DNA from: Daejeonella sp. JGW-45 | Lineage (GTDB): Bacteria > Bacteroidota > Bacteroidia > Sphingobacteriales > Sphingobacteriaceae | Assembly (NCBI RefSeq): GCF_029360805.1 | Contig: NZ_JARKNC010000001.1 | Span: 558,001 to 622,000 of the forward strand | Reading direction: 5' to 3' | DNA length: 64,000 nucleotides | Part shown: positions 8,371-64,000 of the stretch, piece after piece | Position numbering within the stretch: position 1 is the first letter of the stretch | Layout: every line of letters starts with the position of its first letter | The notes under the pieces: generated by a model | What the model saw: the letters and a program-made list of their open reading frames with translations, nothing else | Told to the model about the DNA's origin: nothing | Database searches by the model: none | Translations under genes and position numbers: made by a program

Positions 8371-8403
8371 AGTATCAAGAATCAAGTATCAGGTATCAAA
8401 GAT
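8371..8403. repeat. Short ATCAAG-type direct repeats between nusA and infB
   Basis: Four related 9-10-nt units (variations on tatcaag/aatcaag/tatcagg/tatcaaa) follow each other. The same core recurs at 49663-49774. No function is apparent. Confidence 0.4.
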
Positions 8404-9712: not shown

Positions 9713-9880
9713 TTTTTATTGAGATTTGAAATTTGAGATATGAGATGTGAGATTGAACGCTATCTAACGTCTCACATCTAGCATCTCATATCTAATTATT
9801 TAAAATTAATATTGCTCTTTTTTTTTGAGATATGGGATGTGGGATCGAACGCTGTCTCACATCTAGCATCTCATATCTAA
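9696..9880. repeat. Tandem duplication (period 107 nt) between nusA and rimP
   Basis: The 15-nt string at 9696-9710 (the reverse complement of the nusA start region) reappears exactly at 9803-9817, and the following poly-T tract and the palindromic block (gagatatgagatgtgaga / tctcacatctagcatctc) are also repeated with small changes. Copy 1 spans 9696-9802 and copy 2 9803 to about 9880. In copy 2 the nusA start codon is destroyed. Each copy is itself an inverted repeat able to form a long hairpin in the rimP-nusA transcript. Confidence 0.85.
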
Positions 9881-49662: not shown

Positions 49663-49774
49663 AGCCAAGAATCAAGACCTATTTATACTTAGCATCAAAT
49701 TTCTTCATCGATTTTACACTGGGCGTTTTGTGAAAATCCTGATTCTTGGCTCCTGATTCTTGATTCTCGGTTCT
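49663..49774. repeat. Inverted and direct repeats of an agccaagaatca unit
   Basis: agccaagaatca (49663-49674) and tgattcttggct (49740-49751) are perfect 12-nt reverse complements, followed by two more direct copies of tgattctt up to the aspS stop region. A related unit occurs at 8371-8403. Confidence 0.65.
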
Positions 49775-51743: not shown

Positions 51744-51920
51744 AGGGGTGCCTTGTTTGCGAAATCAAACACAAAAACAGGCTGAGATTAAACCCATCGA
51801 TGGACGTTGTACGTTATACGTTGTACGTTATAAGTCTTACACAAGGCTCATAGCTCACAGCTGATAGCTCATCTCCTGAGAGCACCTGATCCGGATAATG
51901 CCGGCGTAGGGAGGTAATGT
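51744..51920 (+). ncRNA. TPP (THI-box) riboswitch with large internal insertion
   Basis: The conserved parts are all present: GGGGTGCC at 51745-51752, GGCTGAGA at 51780-51787, AACCC at 51791-51795, and ACCTGATCCGGATAATGCCGG / CGTAGGGA running to about 51912. Between AACCC and ACCTGATC, where other TPP aptamers have a few bases, there is an 88-nt insert (51796-51883). The insert carries a 14-nt tandem repeat and a tagctca direct repeat. It controls the downstream TonB receptor and probably thiE. Confidence 0.93.
51804..51831 (+). repeat. 14-nt tandem repeat inside the riboswitch
   Basis: acgttgtacgttat occurs twice in a row without error (51804-51817, 51818-51831). In the frame gttgtacgttatac it matches 13 of 14 bases of the unit at 26522-26549. 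Confidence 0.8.
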
Positions 51921-57864: not shown

Positions 57865-59690
57865 TGTTTTATTTTTGACGAGAGCCAGTTATTTCTAAAC
57901 TGTAACTGTTGAAGAGTCGCATTTTCTAAAGCCACCACTTCCAGAGTATTATCTTCCTGAATTATTAAATCGGCTGTTTTAATTATACCCTTATGTTCGA
58001 AAGTAACAGGAACGCGCTGGCCCGGTTTGTACCTGGAAATAAGCTGATCTATGTCAATATTACCAAGTAAATTGTCATCGCCGATCTTAAGAATATAATC
58101 GCCGATGTCAATCCCTGCTTCATAAATCGGCGAACCTTTAACAGTAGGATTTGCTACACGATTCTTGCCGGTATAAGATACAAGCGTGAATCGAAGCGGC
58201 CCGATAACCGGCTTTCCCGGAGCTGCTTTACGCAGCCGCAGCCCAGCCTTCTTTAATAATTCCGAATAATCATTTTTATCAGTTCCTTCAATGTACTTCT
58301 TAAAAAAATCTGCCGCGAAGGATGTGCTGGTGAGCTTTGCCAAAACATTCTGCAGGTCTGAAACAGTATAAGGGATCTCTGTTTTACCGTGAACAGTCCA
58401 GACTGCCTTCATATAATCGTCCAGGCTAAGCTTAAACTCAGAGCGAAGGCGAAGATCAAGTCCAAGGGCGACAGCTGCACCGTAAGTATAATACGAAGCA
58501 AAAGTGTTTGCATAATTATTCTGATCTACAGATACGCCAGCATCCACAAACACCGCGTACCTGCTCATGTGCGTAACGGGAAACCGGCCTGGCCCGGGTG
58601 CATTTAAAATTCCGTTAAGAATTCCTGACAGGACAGCTAGGTATTGTTTATCGGTACGGTAGCCGGCACGTTTGAGAATAAGGTTGCCATAATATTGGGT
58701 AAAGCCCTCGGCAAACCAAAGATCGCTGCTCATATTGGCATGAGAAAAGTCAAAAGGCTCAAGGCTTTTCGGGCGGATACGTTCTACATTCCAGGCATGA
58801 AAGAATTCATGTGAGAAGGTGCTCAGCATGGCTTCCTGGTTTCCCGCGATCTTAAATCCGCTGTTGGTGATCACAGTCGAGTTTCGATGCTCCATCCCGT
58901 CACCGTTATTATCCGGGTTTACGTCCTGAAGGAAGGTATATTCGCCGTTATCAAATAACGGCAGTTCGCCGAAAACGGCCTTTTGTTCTTCCACCACCTT
59001 TGCAACCATACCGGCATAATCATCAATCACCTTCTGGTCGTCTGCCGTGCCATGAGAGCTAAGCCGGATAGTCTGACGTCTACCCCCCGGATTTACGTCC
59101 TGCCAGGTAGCAATCTTAAAATCAGAAAGTTCAACCGGACTATCCATAAAATACTGCAGGTCGGGCGCTGTGAAGATATTAGCACCGCCCGGCTTTAACT
59201 GAGTAGCCACCTTCCATTTATATTTCTCCAGATCATTGAACCGGATCCTGACAGGCCTGTTTGTCATAGCAGGGAACCACATAAATGTAGCCGGCATATT
59301 CATGTGAGCATGGCTTTCATCTATCGCCAGGTAGGTTCCATCTACATGATTACCATAGATCGTGTAACTTATCCTGGCTGAGCCATCATGCTTGTCAATA
59401 CGATATATATCACCCTGAACCTGCGTTACCGGCACCGGATTTCCCTTCCCGTCGATGGCCTTCACACCATATACATTCTTTCCAAACTCATGCGTTGCAT
59501 ACCGGCCGGGCGATGAGCGGCTCATCCGGAAGGTAAGCGGTCCGGATGGCACCCTGTTGACGGTTATTTCAATTTCGGCTTCATGATGCACCGCGTTAGG
59601 GAACGAGATGGAATAATCTATTGTTTCCTGTCCGATAGCGCGGAAGATCCCGGAAAAGGATAAAAAAAAGATCAGGAGGTAAAATCTCAT
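57861..59690 (-). CDS. M61-family glycyl aminopeptidase with PDZ domain
   Basis: A 609-residue peptidase; the start is the ATG at 59688-59690, which gives a signal peptide ending near FRAIGQ. An N-terminal beta domain is followed by the gluzincin region FSHEFFHAWNVERIRPKSLEPFDF (HExxH with the third ligand downstream) and a C-terminal PDZ-like domain (SPIYEAGIDIGDYILKIGDDNL). It is the middle gene of DUF4407-M61-M28. Periplasmic, acting on N-terminal glycine or alanine. Confidence 0.92.
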   Translation of the reverse strand: MRFYLLIFFLSFSGIFRAIGQETIDYSISFPNAVHHEAEIEITVNRVPSGPLTFRMSRSSPGRYATHEFGKNVYGVKAIDGKGNPVPVTQVQGDIYRIDKHDGSARISYTIYGNHVDGTYLAIDESHAHMNMPATFMWFPAMTNRPVRIRFNDLEKYKWKVATQLKPGGANIFTAPDLQYFMDSPVELSDFKIATWQDVNPGGRRQTIRLSSHGTADDQKVIDDYAGMVAKVVEEQKAVFGELPLFDNGEYTFLQDVNPDNNGDGMEHRNSTVITNSGFKIAGNQEAMLSTFSHEFFHAWNVERIRPKSLEPFDFSHANMSSDLWFAEGFTQYYGNLILKRAGYRTDKQYLAVLSGILNGILNAPGPGRFPVTHMSRYAVFVDAGVSVDQNNYANTFASYYTYGAAVALGLDLRLRSEFKLSLDDYMKAVWTVHGKTEIPYTVSDLQNVLAKLTSTSFAADFFKKYIEGTDKNDYSELLKKAGLRLRKAAPGKPVIGPLRFTLVSYTGKNRVANPTVKGSPIYEAGIDIGDYILKIGDDNLLGNIDIDQLISRYKPGQRVPVTFEHKGIIKTADLIIQEDNTLEVVALENATLQQLQFRNNWLSSKIKQ

Positions 59691-59701
59691 AGCGGCTCTG
59701 C

Positions 59702-60820
59702 TTAATCCCATTCATGCCTTTCCAGTTCACGGGCTGAACTGCGGGATACCAGTTGTTTCTGTTTATCGATCTCGGTATTTATCCTGGTATCGTGAACGCC
59801 ATCGGTAACGGCAATATCATGATCCCTGGTTTTGTCTGATTTGTAAATATAAGTTTCATCCACATTCTGCAGGGCGATATCATAAGGGCCCTTATTACTC
59901 ATCAATTTTACGAATACCGGCAGACATTCGAATAAAATAAAAAGAAATCCTATAAATGAAATGGCAAGATAGTTATCCAGGTCGCGCGAGCCATCTTCCT
60001 TGAAGGTCAGTTGTCCCAAGGCCCAGTTGCGGTCGGCAAATCCGGCAACACTTGCCAAGCTGTCCAGCTGCTTGCCGCTAAACATCCGCTGGTCCGAAAG
60101 GCCATCCAGATCCTTTCGCCGGGTAAAGAAAACGTCCATTGCGGCAAGCTCAGAGCGAATATTTTCCAGTCTTTGTTCCTTCTGGACTACAATCGATTCT
60201 TTTTGCTTCGCATAAGTCCCGTACCCGGTAATGCCAGACGTCTGGTTCGTTTTATCTCCAAAAACCTCCTGATTGAGAATATACCGTGAGCGGTTTATAT
60301 CTTTTTCGAGCGAATCCTTCTCAGTCTTAAGTTCCGCAGTCTTTTGAAGTTCCGCAGCATATTTATTCGCGAAAGTCTTGTTCAGCGTGTCTATTTTAGA
60401 ACGCTGCCCATTCAGATAGCTGGTCTTAAGCTTCTCACGGATCTCCTTGTCAAATATTTTTAGCTCAAGCGGCCGCGATATGACGATTCCTATCATGATT
60501 GCTAAAAGTATCCTCGGTGTAGCTTGCAGTATTTGCTGGTTAGTTGTACCGCTCTTACTGATACTGGCTACGATATAGCGATCCATATTGAATATGGCCA
60601 GGCCCCATATCAGGCCAAAGAAGATTGCAAAAATTACCGCCATGGGGTTTCCGGCAAAAACGAAATACATGGCATACCCACCGGAAAGAGAAGCAAAAAG
60701 TGCTGTGAAGAATATCGTTGCGCCTATACCAACATATTTATTGTGCTCTGTGGGGTACCTCTTCAGCGTATCTACATGTGCTCCGGAACAGAACCAGAAA
60801 AAATCGGTTATCTTTTTCAT
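59702..60820 (-). CDS. DUF4407 membrane protein
   Basis: A 372-residue inner-membrane protein. Three transmembrane helices lie in the first 110 residues, a long soluble coiled coil spans about 125-255 (LKTSYLNGQRSKIDTLNKTFANKYAAELQKTAELKTEKDSLEKDI), and a fourth helix is near 290. Function of the family is unknown. It is just upstream of the M61/M28 peptidases and likely in one operon. Confidence 0.88.
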   Translation of the reverse strand: MKKITDFFWFCSGAHVDTLKRYPTEHNKYVGIGATIFFTALFASLSGGYAMYFVFAGNPMAVIFAIFFGLIWGLAIFNMDRYIVASISKSGTTNQQILQATPRILLAIMIGIVISRPLELKIFDKEIREKLKTSYLNGQRSKIDTLNKTFANKYAAELQKTAELKTEKDSLEKDINRSRYILNQEVFGDKTNQTSGITGYGTYAKQKESIVVQKEQRLENIRSELAAMDVFFTRRKDLDGLSDQRMFSGKQLDSLASVAGFADRNWALGQLTFKEDGSRDLDNYLAISFIGFLFILFECLPVFVKLMSNKGPYDIALQNVDETYIYKSDKTRDHDIAVTDGVHDTRINTEIDKQKQLVSRSSARELERHEWD

Positions 60821-60973
60821 CTACTTAGTTTTTGCTTTTCAGCTCATGCGGTACCGTTGTGAATTGAAATATCTAATTAAACGCCCGCTTTATCAACATG
60901 TTACAAGAGCGTCATTTTATTTAATGCAACACCACATCGCCCCTTTGGTTTATATAAATATTTAGGAAAACCG

Positions 60974-60981
60974 TATCTTTG
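60974..60981 (+). promoter_or_regulatory. -7 box of the rhodanese gene
   Basis: TATCTTTG matches TAnnTTTG; a TTTG lies at 60944-60947 but 26 nt away, longer than ideal. The leader is about 100 nt and has the agcttcattgcc motif shared with the TonB receptor leader. Confidence 0.45.
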
Positions 60982-61086
60982 GCTTACAAATATATCAGAG
61001 ATGAAACCTGCTTGAACCTGCCTTTCAAAAAAAAATAATTTAAGCTCAAGCAAGCTTCATTGCCATTGAAAAACAAACTATAAGCA

Positions 61087-61401
61087 ATGAAAGAAGTTAC
61101 AGTACAGGAATTGAAGCAAAAAATTGACAACAACGAAAGTTTCCAGCTTATCGACGTTCGTGAACCTTTCGAGTATGAAATGTCTAATATCGACGGCGAA
61201 AATATTCCGTTGGCAGGAATCGTAATTGAATCTTCAAAGATAAGCAGAGATAAGCCTGTTATCATGCAATGCCGTAGTGGTGCCAGGAGTGCTGCAGCGG
61301 TGATGCAACTTGAACAACTGGGTTATACCAACCTTTATAATCTTAAAGGCGGCATTCTTGCCTGGGCTGCAGAATATGAGCCAGACATGAGGGTCTATTA
61401 A
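61087..61401 (+). CDS. Rhodanese-like sulfurtransferase
   Basis: A 104-residue single-domain rhodanese. Catalytic Cys62 is in CRSGARS, the six-residue loop of sulfur (not arsenate) type. It lacks a signal peptide. It probably carries a persulfide for other enzymes; an MBL-fold hydrolase of the persulfide-dioxygenase kind is encoded 2.4 kb downstream. The small membrane protein starts one base after its stop. Confidence 0.92.
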   Translation: MKEVTVQELKQKIDNNESFQLIDVREPFEYEMSNIDGENIPLAGIVIESSKISRDKPVIMQCRSGARSAAAVMQLEQLGYTNLYNLKGGILAWAAEYEPDMRVY

Positions 61402-61402
61402 T

Positions 61403-61594
61403 ATGCTGAAGAAGATTCTTTTTAATATTTTCCTGAACATTGCCCTTATCATACTCATCCTGTGTATTGTCTGGTCAATAAAGAACGGTTTCTATCTGTA
61501 CGCCATAGCTGCAACCCCTCCGTTTGCCATGCTCATATTTCTGAAGGTCAGGCTTGCAAAAAGCGTGAGGGATATGACCAGCAAGAAAAAATAA
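61403..61594 (+). CDS. Small two-helix membrane protein
   Basis: A 63-residue protein with two transmembrane helices (ILFNIFLNIALIILILCIVW and LYAIAATPPFAMLIFL) and a basic tail VRLAKSVRDMTSKKK. It starts one base after the rhodanese stop, so the two are cotranscribed. It resembles short DUF proteins of Bacteroidota but I cannot name the family with confidence. Confidence 0.7.
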   Translation: MLKKILFNIFLNIALIILILCIVWSIKNGFYLYAIAATPPFAMLIFLKVRLAKSVRDMTSKKK

Positions 61595-61596
61595 AC

Positions 61597-61728
61597 ACCG
61601 CGTTCAGTCCGCTTATACTCCGCTTGATGTCCGCTCGGACTCCGGTTCAGGTCCGCTTGAGGTCCGCCTGGACCCCGGTTTAGAACCGGCTTAGGAATGT
61701 CTTAGAACCGGTATAACACCGCTTGAAT
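61597..61728. repeat. Array of twelve degenerate 11-nt units
   Basis: Exactly 12 consecutive 11-mers with no gap, each beginning (T/A/C)CCG followed by (C/G)(T/C)T or similar and a variable four-base tail; example units are tccgcttgatg, tccgctcggac, tccgcttgagg, accggcttagg. One unit (61696-61706) is degenerate. The array begins two bases after the small membrane protein stop and ends 26 nt before the epimerase stop. Confidence 0.85.
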
Positions 61729-61753
61729 AAAGAGCTGTCTCCGTGTGGTGTTT

Positions 61754-62779
61754 CTAAATAACCTGCTGATCGTGCCTTATCCCCAGACCGGGGTCATCAC
61801 TAAGAACCCACTTCCCATCTTTAAAATCGGGATCTTTATAGGGATTATTACTGGTAAGGAAAGGCCCGTCTAGATCGGCCCAATCGCACAAAGGAGCCAG
61901 GGCCGCAGCGGCAAGCGTGGCGCAGCTGGTTTCGCTCATGCAGCCGATCATTACTTTCATGTCCAGCTCTTTGGCTTTCTTTATCATCCGGTAGCCCTCA
62001 TGCATCCCCCCGCTTTTCATCAGCTTCATGTTAATCGCATGGTAAACACCTTTAGCTTTTTCAACATCCGCAAAGCGCTGCACCGATTCATCGCCGACAA
62101 TAGCGACCGGGCTTCGTTCAGTGATCCAGGCGTTCGAATCAGGGTCGTCCTTTGCCATAGGCTGCTCAATCAGGACAACTCCCTGCTCATGAAGCCAGTG
62201 AGCCATATCCAGTCCCTGCTGCCTGTCTAACCAGCCCTGATTGGCGTCTACGAATAAGGGCTTATTGCTTACCGAACGGATAGTATTAATGAGCTCCTTA
62301 TCATTATCACGGCCGAGTTTCACTTTGATGATGTGGCAGTGTTCGCCCTCTTTGATCTTTTGAATCAGCACTTCCGGTGTGTCTATACCCAGAGTGTACG
62401 ATGTTTTCGGCATCCGGGCCGGGTCAGTGCCAAAAAACTTATAACATGCCGTATTCTCCATCTTTCCTTTGAGGTCATGCAGGGAAATATCTATTGCAGC
62501 TTTGATACTCGGATTGGCAGGAGCGATACTATCGAGGTACGCAACAAGCTCCTCGAAATCAAATGGTTCTTTCAGCCAGGACAGGTCTACCTTCGACAAA
62601 AATGCTGTGGCAGTTTCCATATTTTCACCCATATAAGGCACCATCGAAGCTTCTCCATACCCCGTGAAACCTTCATGGCTTATTTCCAAAAGCATGATCG
62701 GGGTTGAAGTGCGTGAGAATTTTGCAATGGTAAAAGGATGCTTTAATGCAAGTTCGAAAGGCTTATAAGTGATCTTCAT
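61754..62779 (-). CDS. L-Ala-D/L-Glu (dipeptide) epimerase
   Basis: A 341-residue enolase-superfamily epimerase; the start is the ATG at 62777-62779 (MKITYKPFELALKHPF). The lysine pair is in IIKVKLG, metal ligands in FVDANQG, EQP and GDES, and the second lysine in MKLMKSGG. The enzyme epimerises L-Ala-D-Glu from peptidoglycan recycling. Residues upstream in frame are not conserved. Substrate specificity within the dipeptide epimerases is not certain. Confidence 0.9.
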   Translation of the reverse strand: MKITYKPFELALKHPFTIAKFSRTSTPIMLLEISHEGFTGYGEASMVPYMGENMETATAFLSKVDLSWLKEPFDFEELVAYLDSIAPANPSIKAAIDISLHDLKGKMENTACYKFFGTDPARMPKTSYTLGIDTPEVLIQKIKEGEHCHIIKVKLGRDNDKELINTIRSVSNKPLFVDANQGWLDRQQGLDMAHWLHEQGVVLIEQPMAKDDPDSNAWITERSPVAIVGDESVQRFADVEKAKGVYHAINMKLMKSGGMHEGYRMIKKAKELDMKVMIGCMSETSCATLAAAALAPLCDWADLDGPFLTSNNPYKDPDFKDGKWVLSDDPGLGIRHDQQVI

Positions 62780-62959
62780 AATGAGTTTTTGACAGTACGA
62801 AATAACAAAATTTATTATGTTCAATACGATTAAATTTTGGGGGACCGCAACAGGTCTAACTCGCCAAATCACAAATAAACTTTTATTTTTTCAAACATTC
62901 ACCTAGATTGCGAGCCTCTTAACATAGCATAAAATTAATATTGGCTTAACGTTGTCTTT

Positions 62960-63715
62960 GTGAAAAAAACCCTCCTTTTATTTTTATTTTGTTCCCTTTA
63001 TTTTACTTCTTACTCTCAAAACACTCGCTTAAAAGATAAAAACAGCATAGGCTGGTATGCGTTTAATGCTTCCCTGAAGTTAGATCCGAAATGGAGCCTC
63101 ACCGGTGAATTTCAATGGCGCAGAGATCATGTTATTTCTGATCCGCAGCAAGCTGTATATAAACTGGCCGTCAACCATCTGGTAGCGCCCGGGCTGAACA
63201 TAAGAGCGGGCGTCGCACTAGCCGACACTTACAACTATGGCGATATACCGGTTAATGGTATGGGTAAACAGTTTACCGAATACCGCACTTACCAGATGGC
63301 GGGATTGAGTAACAAGACCGGTATTGCTGAAAACAATCATCGTTTCATGCTCGAACAGCGTTGGGTGGGCAGGTATTCTGATGCTTCCCTGAATAAAGAA
63401 GACGAGTACGTATATACAAACCGATTTCGCTATATGTACCGGCTTCAAATCCCCTTAAAGGGAAAGGCAATTGCTGACAATACTCCCTACGCGGCTGTAT
63501 ATGATGAAATATTTATCGGATTCGGTGAAAATGTTGGCGAAAATGTTTTTGACCAGAACAGGTTTGGACTTTTACTGGGGTATCGCTTTTCCCCGCAAAT
63601 AAGGATAGAAGGTGGCTTCTTAAGTCAGATTGCTCAATTCGGGCGCGAAATTAACGGAAGAAACGTCTTTCAGCATAACAGGGGAATTATTCTAAGCACT
63701 AACCTGAGCTTCTAA
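62960..63715 (+). CDS. DUF2490 outer-membrane beta-barrel protein
   Basis: A 251-residue exported protein starting with GTG at 62960; the signal peptide ends near LYFTSYSQ. The strands FNASLKLDPKWSLTGEFQWRRDHVI and YRMQIPL-type alternation end in an aromatic C-terminus (LSTNLSF), typical of an outer-membrane barrel of 12 or so strands. Function unknown. A TAACGTTG box (one mismatch) is just upstream. Confidence 0.85.
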   Translation: MKKTLLLFLFCSLYFTSYSQNTRLKDKNSIGWYAFNASLKLDPKWSLTGEFQWRRDHVISDPQQAVYKLAVNHLVAPGLNIRAGVALADTYNYGDIPVNGMGKQFTEYRTYQMAGLSNKTGIAENNHRFMLEQRWVGRYSDASLNKEDEYVYTNRFRYMYRLQIPLKGKAIADNTPYAAVYDEIFIGFGENVGENVFDQNRFGLLLGYRFSPQIRIEGGFLSQIAQFGREINGRNVFQHNRGIILSTNLSF

Positions 63716-63741
63716 ACTTTACATTAAAACATTATTTCCCC

Positions 63742-63776
63742 GGACAATTATTACCAACTTTGTAGTCAAATTGTCC
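63742..63776 (+). promoter_or_regulatory. Palindrome around the -7 box of the MBL gene
   Basis: GGACAATT (63742-63749) and AATTGTCC (63769-63776) flank a CAACTTTG box (63755-63762, one mismatch to TAnnTTTG). The second arm ends four bases before the ATG. A candidate operator. Confidence 0.4.
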
Positions 63777-63780
63777 TGGT

Positions 63781-64000
63781 ATGCAGATAGAACAAATTTA
63801 TACAGGTTGCCTGGCTCAGGGGGCCTATTATATTACCTCCAACGGCGAAGGAGCGATCATTGATCCATTACGCGAAGTGCAGCCTTACCTCGACCGCCTG
63901 GAAAGGGATAATGTAAAACTTAAATATATTTTCGAAACACACTTTCACGCTGACTTTGTGTCGGGTCACCTCGATCTGAGCGATAAAACAAAAGCGCCGA
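63781..64000 (+). CDS. MBL-fold hydrolase, persulfide-dioxygenase-like, partial
   Basis: The first 73 residues are visible, from the ATG at 63781 to the window edge. IEQIYTGCLAQGAYYI opens the beta-lactamase fold and THFHADFVSGH carries metal ligands His54, His56, Asp58 and His63; the HxHxDF-VSGH form is typical of MBL proteins fused to rhodanese domains. These oxidise persulfides. The C-terminal rhodanese part, if present, is outside the window. The single-domain rhodanese at 61.1 kb is a likely partner. Confidence 0.88.
   Translation, partial: MQIEQIYTGCLAQGAYYITSNGEGAIIDPLREVQPYLDRLERDNVKLKYIFETHFHADFVSGHLDLSDKTKAP

Follow-up and report, generated by a model that had tools for sequence, protein, structure and literature searches.

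The window analysed here is a stretch of 64,000 nucleotides from Daejeonella sp. JGW-45, and it carries an array of short tandem units at 61597..61728 on the plus strand. Upstream lie a gene encoding a rhodanese-like domain (61087..61401, plus strand; PF00581, E 1.2e-16), with synteny in relatives, and a gene for a 63-aa small membrane protein of the DUF6358 type (61403..61594, plus strand; PF19885, E 9.6e-22). On the other side a gene of the mandelate racemase / muconate lactonizing kind (PF13378, PF02746), which we take to be epimerase-like, runs convergently on the minus strand at 61754..62764; its start is uncertain, and the listed open reading frame extends to 62872. The array begins two bases past the stop codon of the membrane protein gene (61592-61594), and 25 bases separate its end from the stop codon of the convergent gene. 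It thus lies in a spacer between two convergent gene ends and not at a promoter.

As the sequence-only reading had stated, the array consists of exactly twelve head-to-tail 11-nt units without indels. Its phased-column score was 132, compared with 60 for the runner-up position of the window, and this score was reached by none of 100 second-order Markov copies of the window (largest value 66.9). Identity at lag 11 amounted to 72 of 121 positions in the array and to 51 of 121 at the window's next best place. The strict 11-nt array is far above chance expectation. The motif (T/A/C)CCG(C/G)TT that had been proposed for the unit starts holds as a consensus, with H-CCG at the start of 11 of the 12 units, but it is no rule, as the full form occurs in six of them; the G at the fourth position is present in all twelve. 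Seven units, mostly of TCCGCTT type, form the left block (61597..61673, plus strand), while the last five form the right block (61674..61728, plus strand), which lines up with the right ends of two other arrays in this genome (C2:922k and C3:363k, described below). The 11 bases directly after 61728 fail to fit the unit pattern. The head-to-tail units of constant length are those of a minisatellite, whereas the near-identity of units that also marks a minisatellite was not found, the mean unit-to-unit identity being 0.54. Beside the near-identical TTATCCTACGT arrays described below, the window array would be a degenerate or old relation of this type.

To look for other arrays of this kind, the own genome was searched with a three-unit pattern allowing at most three mismatches, which gave 36 matches against 9 for the reversed pattern. 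Besides scattered single matches, these revealed three more arrays, namely C2:921999-922141 (minus strand, 13 units), C3:362925-363001 (7 units) and C9:712936-713012 (7 units). Similar phased arrays, whose absence elsewhere the sequence-only reading had named as speaking against its proposal, are thus present at three further places in the genome. The four arrays differ in their number of units, including that of the left-block TCCGCTT-type units. For the window-C2, C2-C3 and window-C3 pairs the best register was the one with the right ends lined up, and over the last five units, without indel, these pairs showed 13, 10 and 19 mismatches in 55 positions, respectively. Among 5000 shuffled unit orders, 13 reached the observed score for window-C2, 7 for C2-C3 and 496 for window-C3; by this comparison a shared unit order is well supported for the first two pairs and weakly for the third. 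The C9 array departs from the shared order, with 749, 2841 and 1437 of 5000 shuffles reaching the score. The window, C2 and C3 arrays line up as diverged copies would, though weakly so for window-C3. Alignments of overlapping unit windows slip by whole units and were left out of these comparisons. In the flanks of the four arrays there was no clear likeness outside the units, nor were there conserved element ends. Separately, a pair of short 11-nt runs of TCCGSGTTTAG occurs in the own genome at C7:71634 and C9:573085 (L034:2635-2677 and L035); these runs share an AT-rich left flank and represent another dispersed repeat.

The age of the array at the window site was judged from the corresponding spacers in relatives. 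A close copy of the convergent gene was found in 17 of 20 genomes, the own genome included, and at 11 loci of those 17, again counting the own one, a comparable small gene stands beside it. Measured from last aligned codon to last aligned codon, the two genes are 165 nt apart in the own genome, while in the ten same-genus relatives, all of which lack the array in this spacer, they are 35, 10, 30, 30, 10, 28, 42, 24, 25 and 30 nt apart. Because of this difference in spacer length the array is considered young at the window site. In the nearest relative, G018, the spacer is shorter by ~156 nt at the C2 site and by ~122 nt at the C3 site, with no array at either, and the C9 site has a different neighbour gene. 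Judged by these spacers, the array is confined to its own lineage at the sites where comparison was possible. The relatives' short spacers also bear on the idea of a decayed coding repeat. The array does have a good period at 33 nt, as a coding repeat might, but its basic period is 11 nt and no open reading frame of at least 40 aa spans it (a 73-aa frame extends into the first 87 bases), in line with the earlier view of a strictly phased, non-coding structure; with only 10-42 nt at the same place in ten relatives, we regard a coding origin as hardly credible.

Relatives of the window family were then sought more widely. A profile model built from the four arrays was applied to 20 genus genomes, considering the best 150 of 251-652 first-look candidates per genome. 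It returned the four arrays at E <1e-14, as it must, being built from them, and no clear match beyond them among these candidates. There were 15 weaker matches outside the four arrays (again among the best 150 candidates per genome), three of which are separate 11-nt arrays, at G000:C2:867716 (G000 being the own genome), G006:C64:88128 and G325:C5:307-380. The last of these (L271:307-380), from another species of the genus, has units of ACTGGTCTGCA / ACCGGTCCGGA type and 39 of 66 matches at lag 11, against at most 28 at lags 7-10 and 12-15. Since the units of the G006 and G325 arrays (ACCGGTACAGA, ACCGGTCCGGA and similar) resemble those of the window, these two arrays are possibly distant kin of the window family across the genus. 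An exact three-unit pattern matched in none of 296 genomes of the phylum, which means little because this pattern is too strict and was also absent from the own genome. With two mismatches allowed, no array of the window's own motif was found in 18 same-genus and 12 same-class relatives, where 14 scattered matches compare with 10 for the reversed control.

Beyond the phylum, an exact pattern spanning three and a half units gave matches in other phyla at no fewer than 119 loci under at least 88 accession prefixes. The matches listed (119 loci) were mostly near-perfect 11-nt repeats, plus one hairpin family, and nine of the 88 listed prefixes had two or more loci, in several cases with the same unit. 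These matches are no evidence of kinship, because the pattern catches any 11-nt repeat with a fitting unit. Nor is ORF masking reliable for placing such foreign arrays, because an 11-nt repeat opens frames. The hairpin family (prefix CADALO; L055, L058, L066 and others) comes from an uncultured Bacteroidetes assembly with at least 19 loci, and in it four TCCGCTTGTTG-type 11-nt units face four inverted ones.

A sister family was recognised through a TTATCCTACGT array at C9:212180 (L302:12180-12234) that had been found in a blindly chosen stretch. The TTATCCTACGT pattern gave 15 matches at six loci of the own genome, 17 at five loci in the sister species G018 and none in the 18 other genus genomes; the reversed pattern gave no match at all. 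The eleven loci, collected at up to two mismatches in 22, hold arrays of near-identical units. By their flanking proteins, two pairs are orthologous: C9:212180 with C10:1510310 of G018 (5 and 5 units) and C7:273637 with C10:89113 of G018 (5 and 6 units). In both pairs the array is nearly the same in the two species while the adjacent spacer is no longer alignable. The C9:212180 pair is the fairer test because its G018 copy was reached via the neighbouring genes as well; the other pair was found through the array itself. Two further dispersed repeats were noticed in L302, one of ~128 nt (L302:11537-11664) with 25 matches in the own genome and one of ~41 nt (L302:12405-12445) that occurs in many genus genomes.

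The four copies of the window family and the eleven sister-family loci, with flanks that cannot be aligned, are what one would expect of a selfish dispersed element, comparable to a minisatellite carried by a MITE, in which a small array would be mobilised by an enzyme whose gene lies at another place. Such an arrangement is known from Porphyromonas gingivalis, where BrickBuilt, in the part of the report drawn on here (PMC4596501), is a minisatellite of 23-nt units within a MITE with small inverted-repeat ends. The window array resembles BrickBuilt, as described there, in being a dispersed tandem array with special end units, and differs from it in its 11-nt units and in the absence of inverted repeats of at least 10 nt, no pair of which was present in 61500-61850. 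As there are also no conserved element ends outside the units, and as 61590-61760 has no match in phage or plasmid collections, we consider a selfish element improbable.

The gene setting of the arrays was compared across both dispersed families. Of the 15 arrays (both members of each of the two orthologous pairs being counted), 10 have co-directional neighbours, five are placed between convergent genes and none between divergent genes, and all 15 are flanked on at least one side by the 3' end of a gene. The position between convergent genes, which the sequence-only reading had stressed for the window array, is thus no rule, as the C2, C3 and C9 arrays all lie between co-directional genes. The constant presence of a gene end, together with the lack of an intrinsic terminator (a GC-rich hairpin followed by a T run) in 60700-62000, could point to a terminator, Rho-dependent or of another type, that stops transcription in both directions between convergent genes. 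This function is very improbable in our view, since C is hardly richer than G in the array (40 versus 34), the same convergent pair has a spacer of merely 10-42 nt in ten relatives, the C2 and C9 arrays are antisense to both of their neighbour genes, and divergent genes flank three of eight other 11-nt arrays. The mixed direction of the arrays with respect to genes points to DNA rather than RNA. Rfam covariance models gave no match up to E 1 in 58000-64000. The folding z-scores were -1.00 and -0.77 for the two strands of the window array. When each of the four arrays was folded on both strands, the eight z-scores ranged from -1.00 to +2.65, and none indicated an RNA fold of unusual stability.

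The turnover of 11-nt arrays could be followed at a single site in a different branch of the genus. There, G009 has a near-perfect TATACTTATTG run (score 102), G006 has mixed units (74) and G011 a weaker array (63); the corresponding spacers are L388 ~2184-2270 in G009 and L314:8020-8129 in G006. At the same site in G017, G325, G007 and G018 the period-11 score was 34-46, no higher than that of other periods, although the length of the G018 piece did not suffice for this comparison. Arrays of this kind thus seem to expand, become uniform and degrade in constant steps of 11 nt. It had been argued from the sequence that the high divergence of the window units speaks against slippage, which gives near-identical units. 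This argument found no support: 11-nt arrays in the clade range from near-perfect to very degenerate, two orthologous arrays differ by one unit and another array differs in unit make-up between species, which fits growth followed by decay.

Sampled stretches were also scanned for periodicity independently of any motif, after coding DNA had been masked on the basis of simple ORF calls. In a blind scan, for which the stretches were chosen blindly and a spacer segment was counted if it outscored all of its 20 Markov copies, period 7 was found in 11 of 129 segments of the own genome, 5 of 127 of G006 and 9 of 93 of G018. The corresponding numbers for period 11 were 3, 0 and 3 in the same sets of segments, one of the three in G018 being the edge of a heptad array, and periods that are not multiples of 7 or 11 were found in 0-1, 0-2 and 1-2 segments, respectively. 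The period-7 excess is clear in all three genomes, while a period-11 excess is present in the own genome, weakly so in G018, and absent from the blind stretches of G006. A wider scan covered all samples with five Markov copies, part of the samples having been picked for known arrays; here, period 7 was found in 13 of 193 (own genome), 10 of 175 (G006) and 10 of 93 segments (G018), and period 11 in 7 of 193, 1 of 175 and 4 of 93. In G015 none of 67 segments was above threshold at any period, and the 17 segments of G012 included two with period 7 and one with period 11. Other families of the class, pooled into a set of 89 segments, gave four segments at 7, four at 8, three at 9 and one at 11, the last of which adjoins a run of N. 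Across the scanned genomes the motifs differ from array to array. The window itself contains short 7-nt tandem arrays at 8371-8399, 9719-9754, 49740-49767, 51804-51832 and 51846-51872, each with its own motif.

With moderate confidence, we regard the window array as a lineage-specific, non-coding, degenerate and dispersed array of minisatellite type that grows in whole units. It would have originated after the split from the nearest compared relative, when a short array may have been copied into the spacer between two gene ends. The array would then have grown or shrunk in whole 11-nt units, through slippage during replication or through unequal exchange, each step being close to a turn of the helix; point mutations would have accumulated afterwards. 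It would do little harm, since it lies between gene ends. Growth in whole units followed by decay accounts for the window array with few assumptions, and the other copies suggest dispersal. Several observations go against this reading. Simple decay would not leave zero indels beside so much substitution. There is no mechanism for the copying step, since neither an insertion duplication nor a terminal repeat nor a carrier turned up. The relatives' short spacers are too diverged for the junction to be placed. Moreover, the C9 array is off the shared order, and the period-11 excess is absent from the blind stretches of G006 and amounts to 3 versus 1-2 segments in G018. Finally, the constancy of the TTATCCTACGT array beside a diverged spacer speaks for selection acting on the unit or for an exchange among loci, and not for neutral drift; this constancy in two species argues that at least some arrays are recognised by something or kept alike through mutual correction.

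The array could instead be a row of protein sites, with one subunit of a putative protein per 11-nt unit, polymerising along one face of the helix. OmpR/PhoB-type sites are direct repeats near 11 bp of which part of each is conserved, and they consist of few units at promoters. The window array shares their spacing of about 11 bp but not their promoter position. A row of binding sites is unlikely in our estimation; the candidate proteins for it would be nucleoid proteins, architectural proteins or winged-helix regulators similar to OmpR and PhoB. The strict 11-nt phase would suit such sites, as would the unequal conservation of columns, whose majority counts range from 14 to 38 over the 39 units of the four arrays, but this inequality stems partly from the two unit types, and the window units match at only 54 percent. 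The conservation of the TTATCCTACGT array at orthologous sites in two species with otherwise diverged spacers is also in favour, and the occurrence in both orientations relative to genes is rather that of a DNA-level feature. In the 66 nt on either side of the eleven TTATCCTACGT arrays there is in addition a weak in-phase signal beyond the core, with values of 0.326 at lag 11, 0.305 at lag 22 and 0.310 at lag 33, compared with 0.21-0.29 at the other lags from 5 to 33; none of 2000 letter shuffles reached the lag-11 value. The flanks of the window family lack this signal (lag 11 0.255), and the likeness of the eleven TTATCCTACGT loci is partly a product of the search by which they were collected. 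Furthermore, the window array lies between gene ends, off a promoter, and is absent in relatives, and the commoner 7-nt arrays have no one-face geometry. Binding sites are possible but unneeded for the repeat reading. A broader proposal is that 11-nt phased arrays are a class of clade-specific cis-elements with several units, each spread over gene ends in one lineage, built by one-turn duplication and kept constant by a protein polymerising on one face, with the window array as one family in turnover. We consider this proposal doubtful.

Comparable repeats are known from the literature. Simple repeats of 5-11 nt units in prokaryotes are, as cited in the consulted parts of two later papers, scattered between genomes, with heptamers most abundant and polymerase slippage as the proposed cause (Mrazek et al. 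2007, via PMC4679880, PMC4692102). The window array has tandem units in the size range of these long simple sequence repeats, as summarised in those parts, and is unlike them in that its units are degenerate and that the own genome has an 11-nt class beside the 7-nt class. TAACTGA heptamer arrays, in the part of the report used here (PMC4679880), occur in Beggiatoaceae, Cyanobacteria and five Bacteroidetes, and they are alike in that a genome carries the same unit sequence in many of its intergenic regions; by the same account these units are 7 nt long and in BOGUAY mostly lie a few nt before start codons, while those described here are 11 nt long and lie beside gene ends. According to the portion of a 2014 survey (PMC4060949) available to us, repeats of 4-11 nt are mostly normal or weakly over-represented, and those of 6-11 bp are extremely over-represented in the spacers of a few archaea. 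In titles and abstract openings, mostly from outside subscription journals, we found no 11-nt phased intergenic class.

As far as the consulted parts of these papers go, the heptamer excess and its explanation by slippage are already in print, and the 7-nt preference has been linked to the contact length of the polymerase (PMC4679880, PMC4692102). The spacers of the own genome, phased at 7 and 11 nt and at hardly any other period, are a readable trace of the birth of short tandem DNA, in which a preference for 11 nt, close to a turn of the helix, would add another constant to that of 7 nt. The TTATCCTACGT unit, kept in two species beside a diverged spacer, may serve as concrete bait in a search for a binding protein.
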